NCBI GenBank assembly: GCA_003151665.1
Contig: PLYD01000066.1
Location: 1-12,453 of the forward strand
Source: Candidatus Dormiibacterota bacterium
GTDB taxonomy: Bacteria; Chloroflexota; Dormibacteria; Dormibacterales; Dormibacteraceae
DNA length: 12,453 nt
Direction of reading: 5' to 3'
The notes below the pieces were generated by a model that searched no databases, was not told the origin of the DNA, and was given only the letters and a program-made list of their open reading frames with translations. The position numbers were made by a program, and so were the translations under genes. This document shows, piece after piece, positions 4,789-11,950 of this stretch. Each line of letters opens with the position of its first letter. Positions within the stretch are counted from its first letter, which is position 1.

Positions 4789-7401
4789 CTAGCCAGTGTT
4801 TTGAAGACCGGCCGCCACGCCGTTGACAGTCAGAAGAAACAGCCTTTCCGCCAGCACTCTCTCTCGCGCACCGGATCCTTTGGCTCTGAGCGCGCGCAGC
4901 GCTCTGAGCTGCAGGTGGGAGAGCGCGTCGACATATGGGTTGCGGAGCTCGATTGCCCACGAAAGCACCCGCCGATCTTCCAGCAGTCGCTTGTGTCCAG
5001 TGACGGCAAGAACCTTCTCCTTGGTCAGCTCGTACTCGCGCAGCAGGAGCGCCGATAGGTCAGGGTTGGCGCCCAGGTCGAGGTAATGCTTCGCTATCTT
5101 CCGGTCCGTCTTGGCGAGGCTCATCTCGGCATTGTCGAGGAGCACGTTGAAGAGCGGCCACGAGGCGTATGCCTTCTTGAGCTCCTCGAGTGGTGCGGCC
5201 GCCAGGCCGCTTCCCAGGCCGTACCAGCCAGGCAGGTTGAGCCGCATCTGCGACCACGCGAACACCCACGGAATGGCGCGAAGATCGTCGATGTCTTGGC
5301 CGCCGTGCCGCCGGGCGGGTCGGGACGCGATGCGCAGCCGGCTCAGCTCCTCGATCGGGCTCACCTCTCCAAACCAGCTCGCAAATCCCTCGGCTTCGAC
5401 GAGGGCGCGGTAGGTTTCGCGTGCCGCCTCGTCCACCTGCAGCGCGAGCCGCGCAAAACGCTCTGCAGGAGGCCTCGCTCGCTTTCGGGCGGGCGGCGTC
5501 GAGGCCTCGAGCACTGCCGATGCCACCTGCTCGAGATGCCGGCGGGCAATCGCTTTGTTGCCGTACCTCGCAAAGATCACCTCGCCCTGCTCGGTGACCT
5601 TGAAGTGGCCGCCCACCGACCCGGGGGCCTGCGCGCGAACCGCTCGGTTGGCGGGGCCGCCGCCGCGACCCAGCGCCCCGCCCCGTCCATGGAAGAGCGT
5701 GAGGCGCAAGCCGTGGCGTGCTGCCCATCGGGTCAGCTCCTCCTGCGCGCGATAAAGAGCCAGGGTGGCGGTGAGAGGGCCGACTTCTTTGGTCGAGTCG
5801 GAGTAACCCAGCATCACCTCCAGGCGCCGGCCGGAGCGGACGAGTCGACGCACGGGATTGAGCTTCAGCATTGCGTCCATCACCGAAGGCGACCCCCGAA
5901 GGTCGGCAACTGTTTCGAACAGCGGGATCACCTCGAGCGTCGGAGCGATGCCCCCGGTGGCATGGCCCGCCAGCTCGTAGACGGCAGCCATGTCGTGCAC
6001 ATCGCGTGTGAAGCTCACGACGTATCGCCGGCAAGCCTCAGGGCCAAAATCCGCCTGCAGCGCGGCGATTGCCCCGAGTGTGTCGAGCACCTCAATGGTG
6101 GTCGCCGACCGCTTGGCGCCTGAGCGCACCTCGGCGAGCGCGTGCGCATGGATGAGGCTGTGCTGGCGCACCTCCAGCTCGGCGAGATGAAACCCGAATG
6201 TTTCGGCCTGCCAGATCAGGTGCTGCAGCTCGCCGTACGCCAGGCGAACAGCGCCCGCAGCCGCCAGCGACGATTGCACAGTCCGCAGGTCGTCGAGCAG
6301 GCCGGCCGCCCGATCAAATTTCCGCCTTGCGTCCTTCATTCGTGTGGCTCGGATCCGGTCCGCGACGTGAATCAGAAACTGTCGGTGCGGCTCGGAGGGC
6401 GAGCGCTTCTCGAGCTCGGCGAAGCGCTTCGGGTCGGCCGCGCGGAAGGCGGCAAGGCGCCGGCGCAACTGAGGGCTCGGAGGTGTCGTCGCCGTGTCGG
6501 CGGTGAGGGCACGGCCCACCCGATTGGTCGCGTTCTCCAGCGCGATCAGGACGTGCTCGGATTGGATCGGCAGCGTCGCGGCGGTCACCTCCGCGGTGAT
6601 GTTGGCGTTGCCGTCACGATCGCCGCCAACCCAGCTCCCGAATCGGAGAAATGCCGGCGCAAGCGGGGGCCGCTGCCCCGAGTCGTTTGGTCCCAGAGCT
6701 CGGTCCAGCGCTCTATAGATCTCGGGCACGGCGAGGAACAGGGTCTCGTCGAATACCGCCATGACCGAACGGACCTCGTCGAGAGGCTGCACCTGCGTCG
6801 CGCGTAGCTGCCCTGTCCGCCAGAGAATGTCGACCTCCTCGACGAGCCGCCGCTTGGCCTCGGAACGCTCGCTTTCGGAACGGGTCGGATCGTCGAGCCG
6901 GTCCAACTGCTCGCCGGCTCGCCGGATGGCGGTCACGACGGCTCGCCGTCGAGCCTCCGTGGGATGCGCGGTGAAGACGGGGTGCACCTCGAAGTCGGCA
7001 AGGATCCGCTTCAGGCGTCGCGCACCGTGGCGTGACCTCAGCTCGGCGACAGTGGCCGCTAGTGACTCAGGCATCGGCTTCGGCCCCTGGTCCCGCTCAC
7101 GCAGGACTCTTGCGCGGTGATGCTCCTCGGCGAGGTTGGCGAGGTGGAAGTAGCACGCGAATGCCCGGGCGACAGCTGTCGCTCGGGACAGCGACCATGA
7201 TGCAACCAGCTTCTCGGCCTTGCGTTCGTAAGTTGCCTCATCGCGCGCTCGGATCACCGAGCGTCTCAGAAGCTCGACGTCACGTAGCAGCGCCGCCCCG
7301 CCATATTCGGCGACGACCTGGCCGAGGATGTCCCCCAACATACGGATGTCGCGCCGAAGCTCAGATGGTATTTCCTGACGGGCGGTGTCCCTACGGGTCA
7401 A
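4789..7401 (-). CDS. ppc: Phosphoenolpyruvate carboxylase
   Basis: This enzyme carboxylates phosphoenolpyruvate with bicarbonate to oxaloacetate and phosphate, replenishing the TCA cycle and feeding aspartate-family amino acids. The 870-residue length is normal. Family motifs are complete and in order: TAHPTEARRR with catalytic His146, GSWVGGDRDGN (256-266), LEVIPLFETVADL (489-501), LGYSDSTKEVG (531-541), FHGRGGALGRGGGP (570-583), WVFAWSQMRLNLPGWYG near residue 700, and the C-terminal QNTG that reaches the active site. The start is TTG at 7399-7401. A TAG lies four codons upstream in frame, and the first Met (7339-7341) would remove conserved N-terminal residues. There is no Shine-Dalgarno. 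The TTG overlaps the TGA of the third-block frame of the cimA remnant, so translation probably depends on coupling. Confidence 0.96.
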   Translation of the reverse strand: MTRRDTARQEIPSELRRDIRMLGDILGQVVAEYGGAALLRDVELLRRSVIRARDEATYERKAEKLVASWSLSRATAVARAFACYFHLANLAEEHHRARVLRERDQGPKPMPESLAATVAELRSRHGARRLKRILADFEVHPVFTAHPTEARRRAVVTAIRRAGEQLDRLDDPTRSESERSEAKRRLVEEVDILWRTGQLRATQVQPLDEVRSVMAVFDETLFLAVPEIYRALDRALGPNDSGQRPPLAPAFLRFGSWVGGDRDGNANITAEVTAATLPIQSEHVLIALENATNRVGRALTADTATTPPSPQLRRRLAAFRAADPKRFAELEKRSPSEPHRQFLIHVADRIRATRMKDARRKFDRAAGLLDDLRTVQSSLAAAGAVRLAYGELQHLIWQAETFGFHLAELEVRQHSLIHAHALAEVRSGAKRSATTIEVLDTLGAIAALQADFGPEACRRYVVSFTRDVHDMAAVYELAGHATGGIAPTLEVIPLFETVADLRGSPSVMDAMLKLNPVRRLVRSGRRLEVMLGYSDSTKEVGPLTATLALYRAQEELTRWAARHGLRLTLFHGRGGALGRGGGPANRAVRAQAPGSVGGHFKVTEQGEVIFARYGNKAIARRHLEQVASAVLEASTPPARKRARPPAERFARLALQVDEAARETYRALVEAEGFASWFGEVSPIEELSRLRIASRPARRHGGQDIDDLRAIPWVFAWSQMRLNLPGWYGLGSGLAAAPLEELKKAYASWPLFNVLLDNAEMSLAKTDRKIAKHYLDLGANPDLSALLLREYELTKEKVLAVTGHKRLLEDRRVLSWAIELRNPYVDALSHLQLRALRALRAKGSGARERVLAERLFLLTVNGVAAGLQNTG

Positions 7402-7801
7402 GTTTTTCGGCTAGTCTTCGTGAGCTGGGCGTACTCGAACGAGTCGACGAGAGCCGCCAGCGACGCTTCGATGACGGTGAACGCGCTGGATGCGGCGCTC
7501 CGCAAAGCGGTTGCTCGAGCAACCCACCGTCGTCCAGCGCCGCAGTCCCCGCCCGGACTCGATGAGAACCCTCGTTGTTGCGGCAGTACCAGCGGCGCTG
7601 TCCAGGATGCGCACTTTGTAGTCGGAAGCCGCCCTCCACGTAATCGAAGCCGAGCCCGTCCAGAGCGCGGGCGATGCGCACCTTGTCCGCTGCCGAAAAG
7701 GACACGGCAGGGCCCTGGGCGCCGTCGCGCAGCGTGGTGTCGTACACCACGACGCGCTTCGCGGCGCCTTTGGTCTGGCTGGATGCGGCTGGTCTGGGCA
7801 T
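7398..7801 (-). pseudogene. cimA: Citramalate synthase remnant: N- and C-terminal ends joined over a large internal deletion
   Basis: Three blocks in three frames recall CimA, which condenses pyruvate with acetyl-CoA to citramalate on the threonine-independent route to isoleucine. Block 1 (7801-7625, 59 codons) carries [20 protein letters not shown] and GFDYVEGGF, the first active-site strand of the LeuA/CimA family. Block 2 (7620-7510) carries [19 protein letters not shown] and [11 protein letters not shown] from the C-terminal LeuA regulatory domain. Block 3 (7475-7398) carries [18 protein letters not shown], the family's C-terminal end. About 400 residues of barrel and linker are missing between blocks 1 and 2, and 34 extra bases split blocks 2 and 3. 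No active enzyme can be made. The block-1 frame stays open for 136 codons and ends at 7391-7393, across the ppc start. 2-Isopropylmalate synthase is a less likely alternative. Confidence 0.82.
7509..7524. repeat. 16-base perfect palindrome at the edge of the insertion in the cimA remnant
   Basis: GGTTGCTCGAGCAACC is a perfect 8 + 8 palindrome. It lies at the exact point where block 2 of the remnant ends and the 34-base frame-shifting insertion (7476-7509) begins. It may have promoted slippage; a regulatory role is not supported by anything else. Confidence 0.6.
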
Positions 7802-7834
7802 AAAAAAACCTCCGGGCCTTTGTGGCCGGGAGGT
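7802..7834 (-). terminator. Attenuator terminator that also hides the cimA-remnant ribosome-binding site
   Basis: On the minus strand ACCTCCCGGCC and GGCCCGGAGGT form an 11-position stem with one C-C mismatch around the loop ACAAA, followed by seven T residues (7808-7802) directly before the ATG at 7799-7801. This is a strong factor-independent terminator placed between promoter region and coding start, where a terminator makes sense only as an attenuator; no minus-strand gene ends here. The 3' arm contains CGGAGG (7809-7814), the Shine-Dalgarno for the ATG seven bases on, so folding would also block initiation. Confidence 0.75.
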
Positions 7835-7857
7835 CCTGCGACGTCAGCGGAGTGCGC

Positions 7858-7914
7858 TTAAGTCTCACGACCTCCCCAGGCAATTCCGATGATCGCGACG
7901 CGCGACTTTGACAT
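7858..7914 (-). CDS. Putative leader peptide MSKSRVAIIGIAWGGRET, isoleucine type
   Basis: This 18-codon reading frame runs from ATG at 7912-7914 to TAA at 7858-7860, and three of its codons are Ile (ATC ATC GGA ATT, 7882-7893). The antiterminator arm 7869-7876 lies within its Trp-Gly-Gly-Arg codons. A ribosome stalled on the tandem ATC codons would leave that arm free. A ribosome reaching the stop codon would cover it and let the terminator form. This is the classical attenuation layout, and Ile is the end product of the CimA pathway. Weak points: no Shine-Dalgarno, so it would have to be leaderless, and only three cognate codons. Translation is an inference. Confidence 0.5.
   Translation of the reverse strand: MSKSRVAIIGIAWGGRET
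7869..7876 (-). promoter_or_regulatory. Antiterminator arm competing with the attenuator terminator
   Basis: Minus-strand GGGAGGTC is perfectly complementary over 8 bases to GACCTCCC at 7828-7835, the 5' arm of the terminator, with a 33-base loop. Pairing here and pairing in the terminator exclude each other. The arm mimics the terminator's own 3' arm (CGGAGGT), as expected of an antiterminator. Confidence 0.6.
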
Positions 7915-7922
7915 CGCAGCCA

Positions 7923-7928
7923 AGCCTA
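7923..7928 (-). promoter_or_regulatory. Possible -10 element for the attenuated transcript
   Basis: Minus-strand TAGGCT lies 8 bases before the leader-peptide ATG, so transcription could start at or next to the A of ATG and give a leaderless message, which would explain the absence of a Shine-Dalgarno. No good -35 is found at the right distance, so this is tentative. Confidence 0.3.
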
Positions 7929-8009
7929 GAGCATTGCGGGCCGAGATCGCCTGGGTGCCGCAAACAAAATCTGATGGGTATTGTTGGGGCCAAACGAACA
8001 GCCGTAAGC

Positions 8010-8041
8010 CACGGCGACGCGATCACGGCAGATTCACGGCA
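8010..8041 (+). repeat. CACGGC direct repeats upstream of the ACT-domain gene
   Basis: GATCACGGCA (8021-8030) is followed directly by GATTCACGGCA (8031-8041), and a third CACGGC lies at 8010-8015. Spacings of 11 and 14 bases place the copies roughly one turn apart, just upstream of the presumed core promoter. This looks like an activator or repressor site, but no protein can be named. Confidence 0.4.
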
Positions 8042-8070: not shown

Positions 8071-8727
8071 GTGGCGGATGTTCTTGGGCTTCTCGTTGCA
8101 GCGCGAGACGAGCCGGGCGTGCTGTACCGCTTGTCGGAGACCATCTTCCGCCACGGCGCGAACGTCACCTATGTAGCGGGCGGAGCGCATAGAGATAACG
8201 CCGCCGAGCTTCAGCTCGAGGTCGCCGGAGCACCCGACGCCCAGCGCTTGATTGCGGAGCTTGAAGGCCTGGAAGGCGTCACCATGGTCAGCATCGTCCC
8301 CACCTTCGAACGCATCTATGGAAAGCGCGTAATCGTGATCGGTGGCGGCGCGCAGGTCGGCATGGTGGCGCAGGGCGCGATCTCGGAAGCAGACCGCCAC
8401 AACATCCGCGGGGAGCGGATCTCGGTCGACACCATTCCGCTCGTCGGCGAGGATCAGCTCGCGGCTGCCGTTCGCGCAGTGGCCCGGCTGCATCGCGCAC
8501 GAGCACTCGTCCTCGCCGGCGCCCTCATGGGCGGAGACATCAGCACCGCGGTCCGCGAGATAAGGGAAGTGGGGATCCTCGTTCTATGCACCAACATGGC
8601 GGGCTCGGTGCCCGACGCAGCGGACCTCGTGGTGAGCGATCCTGTCGAAGCCGGCGTGATGGCCGTGATGCTGATCGCGGACACCGCGACCTTCTCCATC
8701 GAGCACGTCAGGGGCAAGCGCTTCTAG
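8071..8727 (+). CDS. ACT domain / DUF5612 protein of unknown function
   Basis: The protein has 218 residues. Residues 1-78 have the ACT pattern: a hydrophobic strand (VLGLLVAARDEPGVLYRL), a helix and RHGANVTYVAGG. ACT domains bind amino acids and regulate metabolic enzymes. Residues 82-218 begin GKRVIVIGGGAQVGMVAQGA and resemble the DUF5612 domain known mainly from archaeal and some bacterial ACT proteins. The Gly-rich segment GGGAQVGMVAQGA looks nucleotide- or phosphate-binding, but no catalytic residues can be assigned. There is no signal peptide or membrane segment, so it is cytoplasmic. The start is GTG at 8071-8073, with no Shine-Dalgarno. The gene is divergent from the cimA leader and ends one base from the convergent transglutaminase gene. 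A role in sensing a branched-chain amino acid is only a guess from the neighbourhood. Confidence 0.8.
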   Translation: MADVLGLLVAARDEPGVLYRLSETIFRHGANVTYVAGGAHRDNAAELQLEVAGAPDAQRLIAELEGLEGVTMVSIVPTFERIYGKRVIVIGGGAQVGMVAQGAISEADRHNIRGERISVDTIPLVGEDQLAAAVRAVARLHRARALVLAGALMGGDISTAVREIREVGILVLCTNMAGSVPDAADLVVSDPVEAGVMAVMLIADTATFSIEHVRGKRF

Positions 8728-8728
8728 G

Positions 8729-9541
8729 TCATTCCATCGATCGCGTTCTGACGCCTACGTTCATCGCCCCGGTCGCCGAGCCCACATAGATGCCGCGGGT
8801 CGGCGCGGCGTCGCTGTAATCCCTGCCCACCGCCAGGCGCACGTGGTTCTCTGAGGTGCGCACCGGGTGCGTAGCGTCGAAACCGACCCAACCTCGACCT
8901 GGCACCCAGCCCTCCGCCCACGCGTGAGACGCGCTGGAGGAGCCGCCCCCGTCAGGCGAATGGATGTAACCGCTCACGTAACGAGCCGGCACTCCCATGG
9001 CCCTGGCGGCGGCGATGAACAGGTGGGCGAAGTCCTGGCACACACCCGCGCGCAGCGCGAGCACCTCATCGACTGCGCTGTACACGTCGGTCACTGCGCG
9101 GTCGTATGTGAACTCTCGGCTGATGGTCAGCGTCAACGCATCAAGTGCCTCTTCCACATCGCGGCCGGAGCGTGGATCAGCGATCGGGAAGCGGGCCGCC
9201 AGCTCGCGCACGCCGTCCACGTCCTTGACAGGAGGGCGGAAGCGAAGGAAGTCGTACACCAGCTCCTCGCCGGCGTCCTTGTCAGGCTCGAGCCCGGTCT
9301 CGACGACAGATCTGCTGGTGACGATCAGCCGCGTGTGCGGACGCACAAGGTTGAAGTAGTGCACGTGGTTGCCGTAGCCATCCAGATACGAACGCGGCTT
9401 GATTCCAGAGCTGACGTCCAGGTCGAACTCCAGGCAGCGCTGTCCGTTGCCGTCCATTGGACGCAAGCGCACCTCCATGACCGTTTCCGCAATCGGGCCG
9501 GAGTATTTGTACCGAGTGCTGTGAACTATTTCGAGCTTCAC
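8729..9541 (-). CDS. Transglutaminase-like cysteine protease/amidase (COG1305 type)
   Basis: The protein has 270 residues and no signal peptide. The N-terminal ~100 residues (MKLEIVHSTRYKYSGPI, VRLRPMDGNGQR, YLDGYGNHVHYFNL) match the bacterial transglutaminase N-terminal region. The core carries the catalytic triad Cys168 (RAGVCQDFAH), His206 (SSASHAWAE) and Asp222 (VGFDATHP). Members act on peptide or isopeptide bonds; the substrate of this group is unknown. The start is GTG at 9539-9541, overlapping the TGA of the alpha-E gene by four bases (GTGA) with no Shine-Dalgarno, so translation is coupled. It is the last of three overlapping minus-strand genes, ATP-grasp, alpha-E, transglutaminase, a conserved trio in many bacteria. 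Its stop lies one base from the stop of the plus-strand ACT gene. Confidence 0.88.
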   Translation of the reverse strand: MKLEIVHSTRYKYSGPIAETVMEVRLRPMDGNGQRCLEFDLDVSSGIKPRSYLDGYGNHVHYFNLVRPHTRLIVTSRSVVETGLEPDKDAGEELVYDFLRFRPPVKDVDGVRELAARFPIADPRSGRDVEEALDALTLTISREFTYDRAVTDVYSAVDEVLALRAGVCQDFAHLFIAAARAMGVPARYVSGYIHSPDGGGSSSASHAWAEGWVPGRGWVGFDATHPVRTSENHVRLAVGRDYSDAAPTRGIYVGSATGAMNVGVRTRSME

Positions 9542-10488
9542 TGCTGCTGTTGTTGGGGCATCGCCCTTTCCTCATCGCCGACCACGTTGCTCGGAACCTT
9601 GCTTGGATGGAAGTACGCCTCGCGCATGGCCAGCTCGAGCTGCCGCAACATGCTTCTGCACTCGGTCTCGAACTCTCGTGGCTGGTCGGCGACCGCAGCC
9701 GCGGTCGTATCCATGAACATCCCGTGTAACTTCGAGAGCAGGCGCTTGGGCTTCGAACGCCGGCCGGGTCCGTCGATCCTTGACACCGAGTCGAGGGCGA
9801 CCTGGGCCGAAAAGCGCGCCGATCGTGGCAGCGTCTGGTCGAGTAAAAGGCATTCGATCACGCGGTCGGGTGTGACGCCGCCGGAGTAGCGCGACTGGTA
9901 CGACTCGAACGCAAAACAGGATTTGAGGACCGCGGACCATTCGAGGGCGTCCTCCGGCGCGTCAGCCAGCTCCGCGGACTTTCTGGTCACGATCGCCGTG
10001 ACGTTGGCCGTACGCTCGAGGAACTTCCCAAGACGGACGAAGTCGCGCGCCTCGTCGTGCTGCATCGTGTCCATGAGCAGGCCATCGACCAAACGGATCG
10101 TGAGCTGCACATCGGTGAGGAACGGATATAGGTCAGGCTGCCACGTGGGCTTTTGAACGCGCCAGTGCAGCGCGTTCACCTGCTCGTAGAGCTCGCTGGG
10201 CAGCGAGGGCCGCACCGCCTGCGCCGCCAGGCGTGCAGCGGCAACGCTCGCCCGTACCGACGGCCCCAGCGTTCCCGTGATGACCACCTCGACCGCCTGG
10301 TCACGTCGACTCGTGTCGCCGCCCGGCCAGCCGGCCAGGTCCATGAACCGAGTCCAGAACTCCGGACCGGGCTCATCCGTCCGGTCCAGGGACAGCGCCA
10401 CGTGCACACCCAGGATCCGAGCGAGGTGGTCGGCTCGCTCCAGGTGTCTGCCCAGCAATGTCAGCGACGTTGCCGCCCGGCTAAGCAT
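9538..10488 (-). CDS. Alpha-E domain protein (DUF403/COG2307 type)
   Basis: This all-helical protein of 316 residues opens with MLSRAATSLTLLGRHLERAD, the hallmark of alpha-E proteins (usually MLSR.A..LYWLGRYLERAE). Further signatures are FVRLGKFLERTANV (about 160-173) and a helical C-terminal half. Its biochemical role is unknown; the family is nearly always next to circularly permuted ATP-grasp and transglutaminase genes and may be a partner subunit. The ATG at 10486-10488 is chosen over an upstream in-frame start at 10527. It is where homologues begin and has GAGGG (10494-10498) five bases upstream, although it overlaps the ATP-grasp stop by eight bases. The protein ends in five Gln residues encoded just before the transglutaminase start. 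Confidence 0.87.
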   Translation of the reverse strand: MLSRAATSLTLLGRHLERADHLARILGVHVALSLDRTDEPGPEFWTRFMDLAGWPGGDTSRRDQAVEVVITGTLGPSVRASVAAARLAAQAVRPSLPSELYEQVNALHWRVQKPTWQPDLYPFLTDVQLTIRLVDGLLMDTMQHDEARDFVRLGKFLERTANVTAIVTRKSAELADAPEDALEWSAVLKSCFAFESYQSRYSGGVTPDRVIECLLLDQTLPRSARFSAQVALDSVSRIDGPGRRSKPKRLLSKLHGMFMDTTAAAVADQPREFETECRSMLRQLELAMREAYFHPSKVPSNVVGDEERAMPQQQQQ

Positions 10489-11950
10489 CCGATCCCTCAC
10501 CGTCGTCGGCCATGACCCACGTATCACGGCTGCCGCCGCCTTGCGAGCTGTTGACTATCAGGGAACCGTCCTTGAGAGCGACGCGCGTCAAGCCGCCCGG
10601 CGCGACGTAGATCTCAGGGCCGGTGAGCACGAATGGACGCAGGTCCTGGTGGGCACGTCGCAACCGGCCGTGGTCGAAGACGGGCTGCACCGACAGCGCC
10701 AGTATCGGTTGCGCGATGAACCTTCGCGGCCGCGCCTCGATGCGCCGTCGGAACTCCTCGCGCTGCTCGTTGGTCGATTCCGAGCCGATCAGCATCCCGT
10801 ATCCGCCCGATGAGTCGACGGTCTTGACCACCAGCTCCTCCAGGTGCTCGAGCACGAAACGGCGGTCCGCATCGATCGCGCACAGGTACGTCGGCACGTT
10901 GGGGAGAATGGGTTCCTCGTCGAGGTAGTACTTGATGATCTTTGGCACCAGCGCGTAGACAGCCTTATCGTCGGCGACGCCGTTGCCGAGGGCGTTGGCG
11001 ATGGCGACGTTGCCCGCTCTGTACGCATTGACGAGCCCGGCGACTCCCACGAGGGACTCCTGCCGTCCGAAGATAGGGTCCAGCCAATCGTCGTCCAGAC
11101 GCCTGTAGATGACGTGCACCGGCTTGAGGCCGCGAGTGGTGCGCATGAATACGTGGTCCTGGTCGACGACCAGGTCCGTGCCCTCGACGAGCTCGATGCC
11201 CATCTGCTTGGCGAGGTACAGGTGCTCGTAATAAGCGGAGTTGCTGATGCCAGGCGTGAGCAGCACCACCGTCGGGTCGTCGACGCCCTCGGGCGCGAGC
11301 CATCGTAGGTGGCGCAGCAGCTCGTGAACGTAGCCCTCGACCGGCCGCACGGGATACCCGGCAAACAGGTCAGGCAGCACCCGCTTCATGACGTACCGGT
11401 TGGCCAGCACGTAGGACACGCCCGAGGGCGTCCGCAGGTTGTCCTCCAGAACGTAGAAATCGCCTTTGCCGTCCCGCACGAGGTCGACGCCGGCGACGTG
11501 GCAGTGGATTCCGTGGGGCACCGCAAGACCTTCGATCTCCCTCAAGTACTGGGGGCTCGAGAGCACGGTCTCGGGCGGGACTGCCCCCTGGTGGAGGATC
11601 AGCTTTCGGCCGTAGACGTCGTCAAGGAAGAGATTCAAGGCCGCCAGACGTTGCTTCAGACCTGCCTCGAGGCGTCGCCAGGTCTGGGCCGAGATCACCC
11701 TCGGGATGATGTCGAAGGGAAAGACTTTGTCGGTCCCCAGGGCGTCCGGGTACACAGCGAAGGTGATGCCGTGGTTTCGGAACATCTGCATCGCCAGGTC
11801 GTGGCGGCGGGAAAGCTCCTTCGCCCCAAGCCGGTTCAGCTGGTCGTACAACGTCCGGTAGCCAGGCCTGGGTTGGCCCGAAGGCGCAAGCATTTCGTCA
11901 TAGAACCCGTTGGACTGGTAGTTGACACCAAGGGATTCGTTGGGGGCCAC
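10481..11950 (-). CDS. Circularly permuted ATP-grasp protein (COG2308 type)
   Basis: The protein has 489 residues and is predicted to activate a carboxylate with ATP for amide or peptide bond formation. Visible family motifs are GFYDEMLAPSGQPRPGY (15-31), RNHGITFAVY (58-67), VLEDNLRTPSGVSYVLANR (167-185), LLTPGISNSAYYEH (230-243), IYRRLDDDWLDP (281-292), NALGNGVADDKA (319-330) and VVKTVDSSGGYGMLIG (374-389), in the circularly permuted order. The start is GTG at 11948-11950, with no Shine-Dalgarno. The only later option, ATG at 11891-11893, would lie within the conserved YDEM motif, so GTG is kept. It is first in an overlapping unit with the alpha-E and transglutaminase genes. Iyer, Aravind and co-workers predicted such clusters to make or modify peptide-like metabolites; the true product is unknown. 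Confidence 0.88.
   Translation of the reverse strand: MAPNESLGVNYQSNGFYDEMLAPSGQPRPGYRTLYDQLNRLGAKELSRRHDLAMQMFRNHGITFAVYPDALGTDKVFPFDIIPRVISAQTWRRLEAGLKQRLAALNLFLDDVYGRKLILHQGAVPPETVLSSPQYLREIEGLAVPHGIHCHVAGVDLVRDGKGDFYVLEDNLRTPSGVSYVLANRYVMKRVLPDLFAGYPVRPVEGYVHELLRHLRWLAPEGVDDPTVVLLTPGISNSAYYEHLYLAKQMGIELVEGTDLVVDQDHVFMRTTRGLKPVHVIYRRLDDDWLDPIFGRQESLVGVAGLVNAYRAGNVAIANALGNGVADDKAVYALVPKIIKYYLDEEPILPNVPTYLCAIDADRRFVLEHLEELVVKTVDSSGGYGMLIGSESTNEQREEFRRRIEARPRRFIAQPILALSVQPVFDHGRLRRAHQDLRPFVLTGPEIYVAPGGLTRVALKDGSLIVNSSQGGGSRDTWVMADDGEGSDA

Follow-up and report, generated by a model that had tools for sequence, protein, structure and literature searches.

How might expression of the citramalate synthase gene cimA be tied to isoleucine supply in an uncultured bacterium? 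A locus on contig PLYD01000066.1 of a Candidatus Dormiibacterota genome, lying within a stretch of 12,453 nucleotides (nt) analyzed here in full and called the window, raises this question because a short isoleucine-rich frame and a strong hairpin stand directly before a broken copy of cimA. An original prediction, made from the letters alone, read this arrangement as an isoleucine-type leader-peptide attenuator. Comparison with related genomes, of which G001 is the nearest and served as the reference, points to a ribosome-mediated attenuator that would sense charging of tRNA-Ile and control a cimA-ppc operon, a reading to which we give a probability of roughly 85%. It draws on the sequence parts, their conservation, co-occurrence with cimA, paired changes, and fold energies, from which we infer where transcription starts, that it terminates, that the leader is translated, and that the system responds to isoleucine.

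Parts of the predicted attenuator

All attenuator features lie on the minus strand of the window, and are given here in the direction of transcription.

7923..7928, minus strand: putative -10 box TAGGCT, 8 nt 5' of the leader ATG; no -35 box was recognized
7858..7914, minus strand: leader peptide open reading frame (ORF) MSKSRVAIIGIAWGGRET, 18 codons, with ATG at 7914-7912 and TAA at 7860-7858; homologous Ile-rich ORFs in 28 of 28 aligned relatives
7882..7893, minus strand: putative sensor codons ATC ATC GGA ATT (Ile, Ile, Gly, Ile), with ATC ATC at 7893-7888 and ATT at 7884-7882
7869..7876, minus strand: predicted antiterminator 5' arm GGGAGGTC, within the leader ORF and perfectly complementary to 7835-7828
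7836..7846, minus strand: TGACGTCGCAG, able to pair with 7919-7909 at the leader start (a competing 5' stem in the window fold) or to join the apical antiterminator stem
7828..7835, minus strand: shared arm GACCTCCC, assigned by fold and alignment as both antiterminator 3' arm and terminator 5' arm
7809..7833, minus strand: predicted terminator hairpin that also sequesters the Shine-Dalgarno (SD) sequence, CCTCCCGGCC (7833-7824), loop ACAAA, GGCCCGGAGG (7818-7809), with one C.C mismatch
7802..7808, minus strand: T7 tract, the putative terminator U-tract and also the spacer from SD to start codon; identical T7 in 29 of 29 aligned leaders
7799..7801, minus strand: cimA ATG (7801-7799), directly 3' of the T7

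The 18-codon frame with ATC ATC and ATT, the perfect complementarity of 7869-7876 to 7828-7835, and the strong hairpin followed by seven T residues (7833-7809, then 7808-7802) had all been claimed in the original prediction, and all three are present, with the coordinates given there correct to the base. The putative cimA SD, GGAGG (7813-7809), forms the final five bases of the hairpin 3' arm, so that one structure could act on both transcription and translation.

In the proposed mechanism, transcription would begin at or a few bases 5' of the leader start codon, and the leader would be translated with little or no 5' untranslated region. When Ile-tRNA is ample, the ribosome would reach the stop codon and cover GGGAGGUC, leaving GACCUCCC to pair with the SD-containing arm. 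The resulting terminator would sit directly 5' of the start codon, and any transcripts that escape it would have their SD buried. When Ile-tRNA is scarce, the ribosome would stall at the Ile codons, and GGGAGGUC would pair with GACCUCCC while the SD arm is still untranscribed. The terminator would then be blocked, cimA transcribed, and the SD released from the hairpin.

Conservation of the leader and co-occurrence with cimA

A profile search with TIGR00977 over 101 relatives gave matches in 100, with 56 over the cut-off. The 29 aligned leaders are the window plus 28 family members in which a cimA upstream region could be compared. One further genome (G035) stands outside both alignments (A1 and A2) because its long cimA piece starts at a contig edge, and three loci (L059, L060, and L061) were left out as LeuA-type or motif-less loci rather than cimA. 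The element is present in all 28 of the family cimA upstream regions examined (29 counting the window). Locus L062 of Chloroflexi bacterium isolate CF_54 (VBFO01000006.1) carries it as well. An exact-string search recovered 28 of the 29; the exception, L022, reads GAGAGG. In every one of the 29 rows an SD-like sequence lies within the terminator 3' arm (GAGAGG in L022), in agreement with the earlier proposal that the hairpin sequesters the SD.

Presence of the element follows presence of the gene. A covariance model built from the 29 leaders (R1) finds the element in 29 of the 42 genomes of the nearest family, and these are the same 29 genomes in which TIGR00977 scores over its cut-off (27) or matches in pieces (G017 and G037). 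The other 13 genomes have no TIGR00977 match over the cut-off, although they may hold small cimA pieces, weaker ones being known only among the matches listed. G035 fits the same pattern, with the element directly 5' of a cimA start on a different contig from its long cimA piece. Homologues with intact cimA that lack the Ile codons or the competing stems had been named as grounds for abandoning the original prediction; all 28 aligned relatives keep both, and together with the co-occurrence this supports its reading of an Ile-tRNA attenuator.

In two other families of the class, whose cimA is full length, model searches found no element at the cimA loci. At 30 of 30 such loci another open frame of at least 139 codons ends within about 90 bases 5' of the CimA motif; by eye, it resembles the end of a 3-isopropylmalate dehydrogenase. 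The operon layout there is a different one; the claim is thereby narrowed in range but not refuted.

Isoleucine codons as the putative sensor

The leaders are short ORFs that carry the cognate codons, as an attenuator of this type would require. Isoleucine makes up 104 of 509 noninitial residues (20.4%) in the 29 leaders, against 2.7% of the 14,259 CimA residues at the same loci, and the two other frames of the leaders hold only 4 and 1 Ile among 538 codons each. (The start rule used for these counts took an internal start in L055 and L036, where longer starts exist.) Typical family leaders are MRNQRGIAIEISRGGPPT, MRSWIAIAIEIIRGGPPT, and VRNRIAIGIEISRGGPPT. For the window alone, at least three Ile in 17 residues would arise by chance with a probability (P) of 0.010; a chance origin is removed because the codons are conserved in the 28 aligned relatives.

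With codons numbered backward from the GGA of GGAGGT, all 29 leaders have Ile at -3 (ATT in 28 and ATC in 1), 27 have it at -5, and 24 at -7; the window itself has Ile at -6, -5, and -3. Of the Ile codons singled out by the original prediction, the best conserved is the third (ATT in the window) and not the ATC ATC pair. Across the eight codons 5' of GGA, nonsynonymous single-step differences per site stand at a ratio of 0.58 to synonymous ones, a sign that the peptide as a whole is under only weak purifying selection.

The same module in a sister family

Searching 110 genomes of the class with R1 also returned 15 matches in a sister family, with E values of 8.6e-9 to 0.004. In 14 of the 15 the module stands directly 5' of a gene that reads as threonine synthase (thrC), ending about 3 bases into the gene (L173 to L186). 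Two of these 14 genes, scanned individually, pass TIGR00260 with 262 and 265 bits. In the genome-wide search TIGR00260 was over its cut-off at 12 of the 14, with pieces below the cut-off in G084 and no match listed in G063, where the contig ends. The leaders of these 14 end in SMMMRRGGFRT, TMIMPRGGFRT, and similar sequences, with Met at both -3 and -5 in 14 of 14. In the 15th case (G045, L172:645-2679) the module is followed by an 85-codon ORF and then by an acetolactate synthase large subunit gene (TIGR00118, 628 bits); the leader is MCSTRIRGIVGPGGSRT, with Val at -3 and Ile at -4 and -7. The 85-codon ORF looks IlvM-like by eye, yet no Pfam or NCBIfam model matched it.

The pattern GGAGGTN{55,85}GGGAGGTTTTTT occurs in 25 of the 110 class genomes, in 23 at these leaders and in 2 (G076 and G032) at one unrelated sequence; the reversed pattern, used as a control, gave 0 matches in the 110. 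A second model, R2, built from the window and 43 relatives, recovered in the class those 43 relatives plus G035 at E values of 1.5e-11 or better. The next matches begin at E 0.0015, and many lie on the opposite strand of the same places. Over 400 genomes, R2 matched 71 at E of 0.05 or below, comprising 20 class members and 51 genomes outside the class. Six of ten weak-match loci inspected (L232 to L241) show the motif; by eye, we take L232 and L233 to be T-box-like and L237, L238, and L241 to resemble PyrR-type leaders, while L239 was placed with neither. With these ten weak-match loci inspected, we claim no spread of the module beyond the class, although it may reach further.

Comparing the two families amounts to a natural experiment, since the RNA switch is kept but its sensor codons and target gene differ. 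The sequences lean slightly toward a single homologous RNA module, acting on both transcription and translation, that was readdressed by recoding positions -3 and -5 (Ile before cimA, Met before threonine synthase), with a third version (Val at -3, Ile at -4 and -7) before acetolactate synthase, and that would serve as a clade-specific, swappable amino-acid sensor. The two families may instead have converged on the module rather than inherited it. That the threonine synthase behind the Met leaders is really a methionine enzyme finds neither support nor contradiction; in several leader-bearing genomes of the sister family a second ThrC match also exceeds the cut-off, and PF01053 matches over its cut-off occur in 30 of 32 family genomes.

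The recoding also bears on whether the ribosome might be stalled not by Ile codons but by an arrest peptide, with conserved RGG.PT residues as the cause and a signal other than tRNA-Ile. The C-terminal RGG(P/S/F).T is about as conserved as the Ile codons, and codon -3, the best conserved of these, is also the nearest to it. The RGG codons, however, double as the antiterminator arm, so that a role in the RNA accounts for their conservation, and the residues at -3 and -5 are Ile before cimA (29 and 27 of 29) but Met before thrC (14 of 14) with the RNA module unchanged. An arrest peptide is thus very improbable.

Stems, paired changes, and predicted folding states

The sequences are predicted to fold into two mutually exclusive conserved stems. 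The 46-nt terminator region of the window has a predicted energy of -21.5 kcal/mol (z score of -3.3; 2 of 200 shuffles equally good), and the 126-nt leader has -56.1 kcal/mol (z score of -3.1; 1 of 200 shuffles equally good). Across the cross-family structure set of 44 members, drawn from both families, 98.6% of cells are paired in helix 1, which holds the antiterminator arm GGGAGGTC. The antiterminator as a whole has 97.5% of cells paired, compared to 27 to 60% when the arms are slid, and 32 double-change cells, a number matched by 0 of 500 shuffles. The changes between families are C-G to U-A at pairs 11-49 and 12-48 (10 and 13 rows) and G-C to A-U at pair 16-43 (9 rows). For the terminator taken together with a small hairpin of the flanks of the leader's own GGAGG, 95.6% of cells are paired, with G-C replaced by C-G in 11 rows and 13 double-change cells (0 of 500 shuffles). 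Within the cimA family itself the terminator shows one pair with a double change, in two rows. Within-family covariation was rejected as a line of evidence because the sequences are too conserved. The covariation proposed as a check in the original prediction is thus absent from the antiterminator within the family, where there are 0 double changes, and appears only in comparison with the sister family.

Folding states were calculated with the ribosome edge assumed to reach 12 nt. With a ribosome at the leader stop, the SD is predicted to lie in the terminator with P above 0.9 in 43 of 44 members; in these models the stop codon is placed so that a terminating ribosome would mask the antiterminator arm. 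When a ribosome occupies the first sensor codon and transcription has not yet reached the SD arm, all 44 members have GGAGG and the shared arm paired at P of at least 0.83. In the window, the probability of the SD lying in the terminator is 0.00 with a stall at either ATC, 0.72 at ATT, and 1.00 at the stop. The spacing argument of the original prediction, that a stall at 7888-7893 leaves 7869-7876 clear while a ribosome at the stop covers it, holds in these calculations (0.00 versus 1.00). When the full-length RNA is modeled at equilibrium, the SD-in-terminator probability falls below 0.5 for a stall at one or more of the sensor codons in 26 of 44 members.

Several of these results weigh against the attenuator as proposed. 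In the remaining 18 of 44 members, the SD-in-terminator probability at full-length equilibrium is 0.5 or more at every sensor codon with the arm free; because the stalled-state equilibria are mixed in this way, antitermination in those 18 must rely on the order of folding. SD pairing of any kind averages 0.70, ranging from 0.13 (window) to 1.00, so that in some members the SD is occupied even when it is not part of the terminator. The best conserved codon, -3, is so near the arm that a ribosome there masks part of it (P of 0.72 in the window): under the 12-nt footprint a stall at the window -6 and -5 codons leaves the arm free, and one at -3 does not. The state without a ribosome varies among members from 0 to 1, and in the window alone it is 0.01 or 1.00, depending on whether six bases 5' of the ATG are transcribed. 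Two further antiterminator measures, the number of pairs with a double change and the number of pair types, are no higher than in shuffles (420 and 465 of 500), and the same holds for the pair-counting measures of the terminator (132 and 87 of 500). The covariation appears largely to reflect one split between the two families, so that independent events would be fewer than rows. Finally, a simple consensus scan for terminators did not list the hairpin at 7809-7833, although by sequence and fold it is a GC hairpin with a U-tract, as expected of an intrinsic terminator.

This last result touches on whether attenuation is purely translational, with a hairpin that only hides the SD, a T-tract that is only a spacer, and little or no termination. 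Besides the silent scan, such a scheme would fit an SD that coincides with the 3' arm in all 29 rows, the position of the T7 exactly between SD and start codon, and a mismatch at one stem pair in 8 of 44 members. A spacer alone, however, would not require a T7 that is identical in 29 of 29 and has seven or more T in 13 of the 15 members from the sister family, and the strong stem (-21.5 kcal/mol) abuts this U-tract. In G001, moreover, the leader before ilvB has, by eye, a terminator-like hairpin that lies away from the SD. Purely translational control is thus a doubtful though serious alternative to an attenuator that also terminates transcription.

A putative near-leaderless start

The position of the putative promoter suggests how translation of the leader could begin. 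All 44 members have a TANNNT hexamer 7 to 12 nt 5' of an in-frame leader start codon (ATG or GTG); when the 30 bases 5' of each start were shuffled for 500 rounds, with relatedness not kept, the hexamer occurred in a mean of 4.1 and a maximum of 10 of 44. A sigma-70 consensus scan of the window found no promoter. By the usual spacing of bacterial promoters, a -10 box at this distance would put the first transcribed base on the start codon or only slightly 5' of it. Transcription would then begin at the leader ATG or close to its 5' side, in keeping with the original prediction, and would leave no room for a leader SD. Mycobacterial polycysteine ORFs are likewise said to have a leaderless start.

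The broken cimA and its operon

Downstream of the leader, the window holds the remains of cimA and the next gene of the putative operon.

7391..7801, minus strand: cimA frame as it stands, an N-terminal piece followed by out-of-frame sequence (broken); TIGR00977 positions 2-46 only
7411..7614, minus strand: C-terminal cimA remnant, TIGR00977 positions 466-500, from comparison with G001
4789..7401, minus strand: ppc, phosphoenolpyruvate carboxylase, open frame of 870 codons; NF000584 at 766.9 bits, below the curated cut-off of 815

The claim that cimA is broken was right, as the two remaining pieces match only the two ends of the profile. Compared to the intact cimA of G001, about 1.25 kb of the interior is missing, and an interior piece of about 35 bases appears inverted near the 3' end. 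A further 0.8 kb or so, which by eye resembles an aquaporin gene, is missing upstream. All three breaks relative to G001 fall within about 600 bases (window ~7470-8001). The break is a real rearrangement or, possibly, an assembly or amplification chimera; the mixture fits either.

A broken target gene raises the concern that the leader is a decaying relic, since the window cimA keeps only its two ends. However, only one base, in the terminator loop, separates the leader from its G001 counterpart, whereas elsewhere the window and G001 diverge by about 2 to 21%. The ppc frame behind the broken gene is open, and the break itself may be an artifact. A relic is therefore improbable. Phosphoenolpyruvate carboxylase lies 3' of cimA in 14 of 18 family genomes examined; in G025, G021, G012, and G005 it was not found within the 1.5 to 4 kb seen. 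Under the proposed attenuator, this arrangement would place anaplerosis under isoleucine control.

On the other side of the leader, a gene for a protein with an ACT domain and DUF5612 (8071-8727, plus strand) diverges from the cimA leader. Beyond it, at 8729-11950 on the minus strand, is a row of transglutaminase-like, Alpha-E domain, and circularly permuted ATP-grasp genes.

T-boxes and other candidate leaders in Chloroflexota

T-boxes sense tRNA charging too, by binding tRNA directly without a leader peptide, and the window leader might be a T-box or a riboswitch that binds tRNA or another ligand. One T-box does precede cimA elsewhere in Chloroflexota, an Rfam hit in Lucifugimonas marina (L115:3149-3422). 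Another T-box-like sequence, seen by eye and not reported by Rfam, lies upstream of cimA at ~3390-3470 of L140. Matches below the gathering threshold occur in 56 of the 110 class genomes, none of them placed before cimA of this family. The window leader is short, carries its Ile codons in a single frame, and has no Rfam match, either at the gathering threshold or, around the leader, at E values up to 1; the T-box covariance model likewise found nothing in the window. A T-box or riboswitch here was rejected on the missing Rfam match and is scarcely conceivable. Two unrelated kinds of tRNA-charging sensor may therefore do the same job at cimA, one in L. marina and one in this family.

Other biosynthetic genes in these genomes also have candidate leaders. 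In G002, a Leu-rich leader ORF, MISLAFLLLTLVLLLSLTLLRGGFVARAEARI, and a terminator-like sequence lie 5' of a 2-isopropylmalate synthase-like gene (L060, ~290-420). In G001 (C28, L296), a leader ORF, MSQMVANGRVLVLLGILGLIGLGETGARAT, with a GC-rich terminator-like sequence lies 5' of ilvB and brings the candidate leader-peptide attenuators of this genus to three. In another family (f3; G058:C160, G052:C103, G054:C2, and others), sub-gathering T-box matches lie just 5' of matches resembling LeuA or homocitrate synthase.

Comparison with known systems

The proposed attenuator shares its working principle with the ribosome-mediated attenuation of trp, his, and ilv operons. Rfam 15 (4227 families), in which inclusion of the ilvB-II and ilvB-OMG motifs was not checked, has no match to the whole window at the gathering threshold or to 7700-8020 at E values up to 1. 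Among open-licence articles, as far as titles and the beginnings of abstracts go, no attenuator of cimA was found.

The nearest described cases found, in the portions of the sources available, are the corynebacterial and mycobacterial ilvB leaders (PMC10272879, PMC13236596, and PMC1262725). Like the window leader, the Corynebacterium ilvB-II motif has, in the accessible part of its description, a short ORF rich in the cognate amino acid upstream of a branched-chain biosynthesis gene (PMC10272879). Here, in contrast, the gene is cimA of the citramalate route rather than ilvB, the codons are Ile rather than mixed branched-chain amino acid codons, the terminator arm coincides with the SD, the start is putatively near-leaderless, and the lineage is different. 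The ilvB1NC attenuator of Mycobacterium tuberculosis resembles it in having an upstream ORF encoding LVVI, a ribosome at the stop codon that masks the antiterminator, and a Rho-independent terminator; it differs in its mixed branched-chain codons and 166-nt leader, and the available part of that article mentions no SD within the terminator (PMC13236596). The actinobacterial LEU element, as far as the accessible text goes, has a leader ORF 5' of leuA and a base stem involving the SD, and the same source lists candidate ilvB leaders with terminators. That element differs by a pseudoknot and by Leu codons paired with the SD, and cimA is absent from that portion of the text (PMC1262725). The cysteine upstream ORFs of mycobacterial translation attenuation are, in the part seen, also small ORFs with cognate codons 5' of a biosynthetic operon (PMC13236596), but they respond to another amino acid, and the candidates have no obvious terminators (PMC1262725).

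Compared to these systems, what appears new from sequence comparison is the target gene, the use of a single amino acid, a terminator arm that is also the SD with the U-tract as spacer, a putative near-leaderless start, and a module that may have been recoded for other genes. Leader-peptide attenuation would thereby extend to an uncultured lineage labeled Chloroflexi, with a dedicated tRNA-Ile sensor for the citramalate route.
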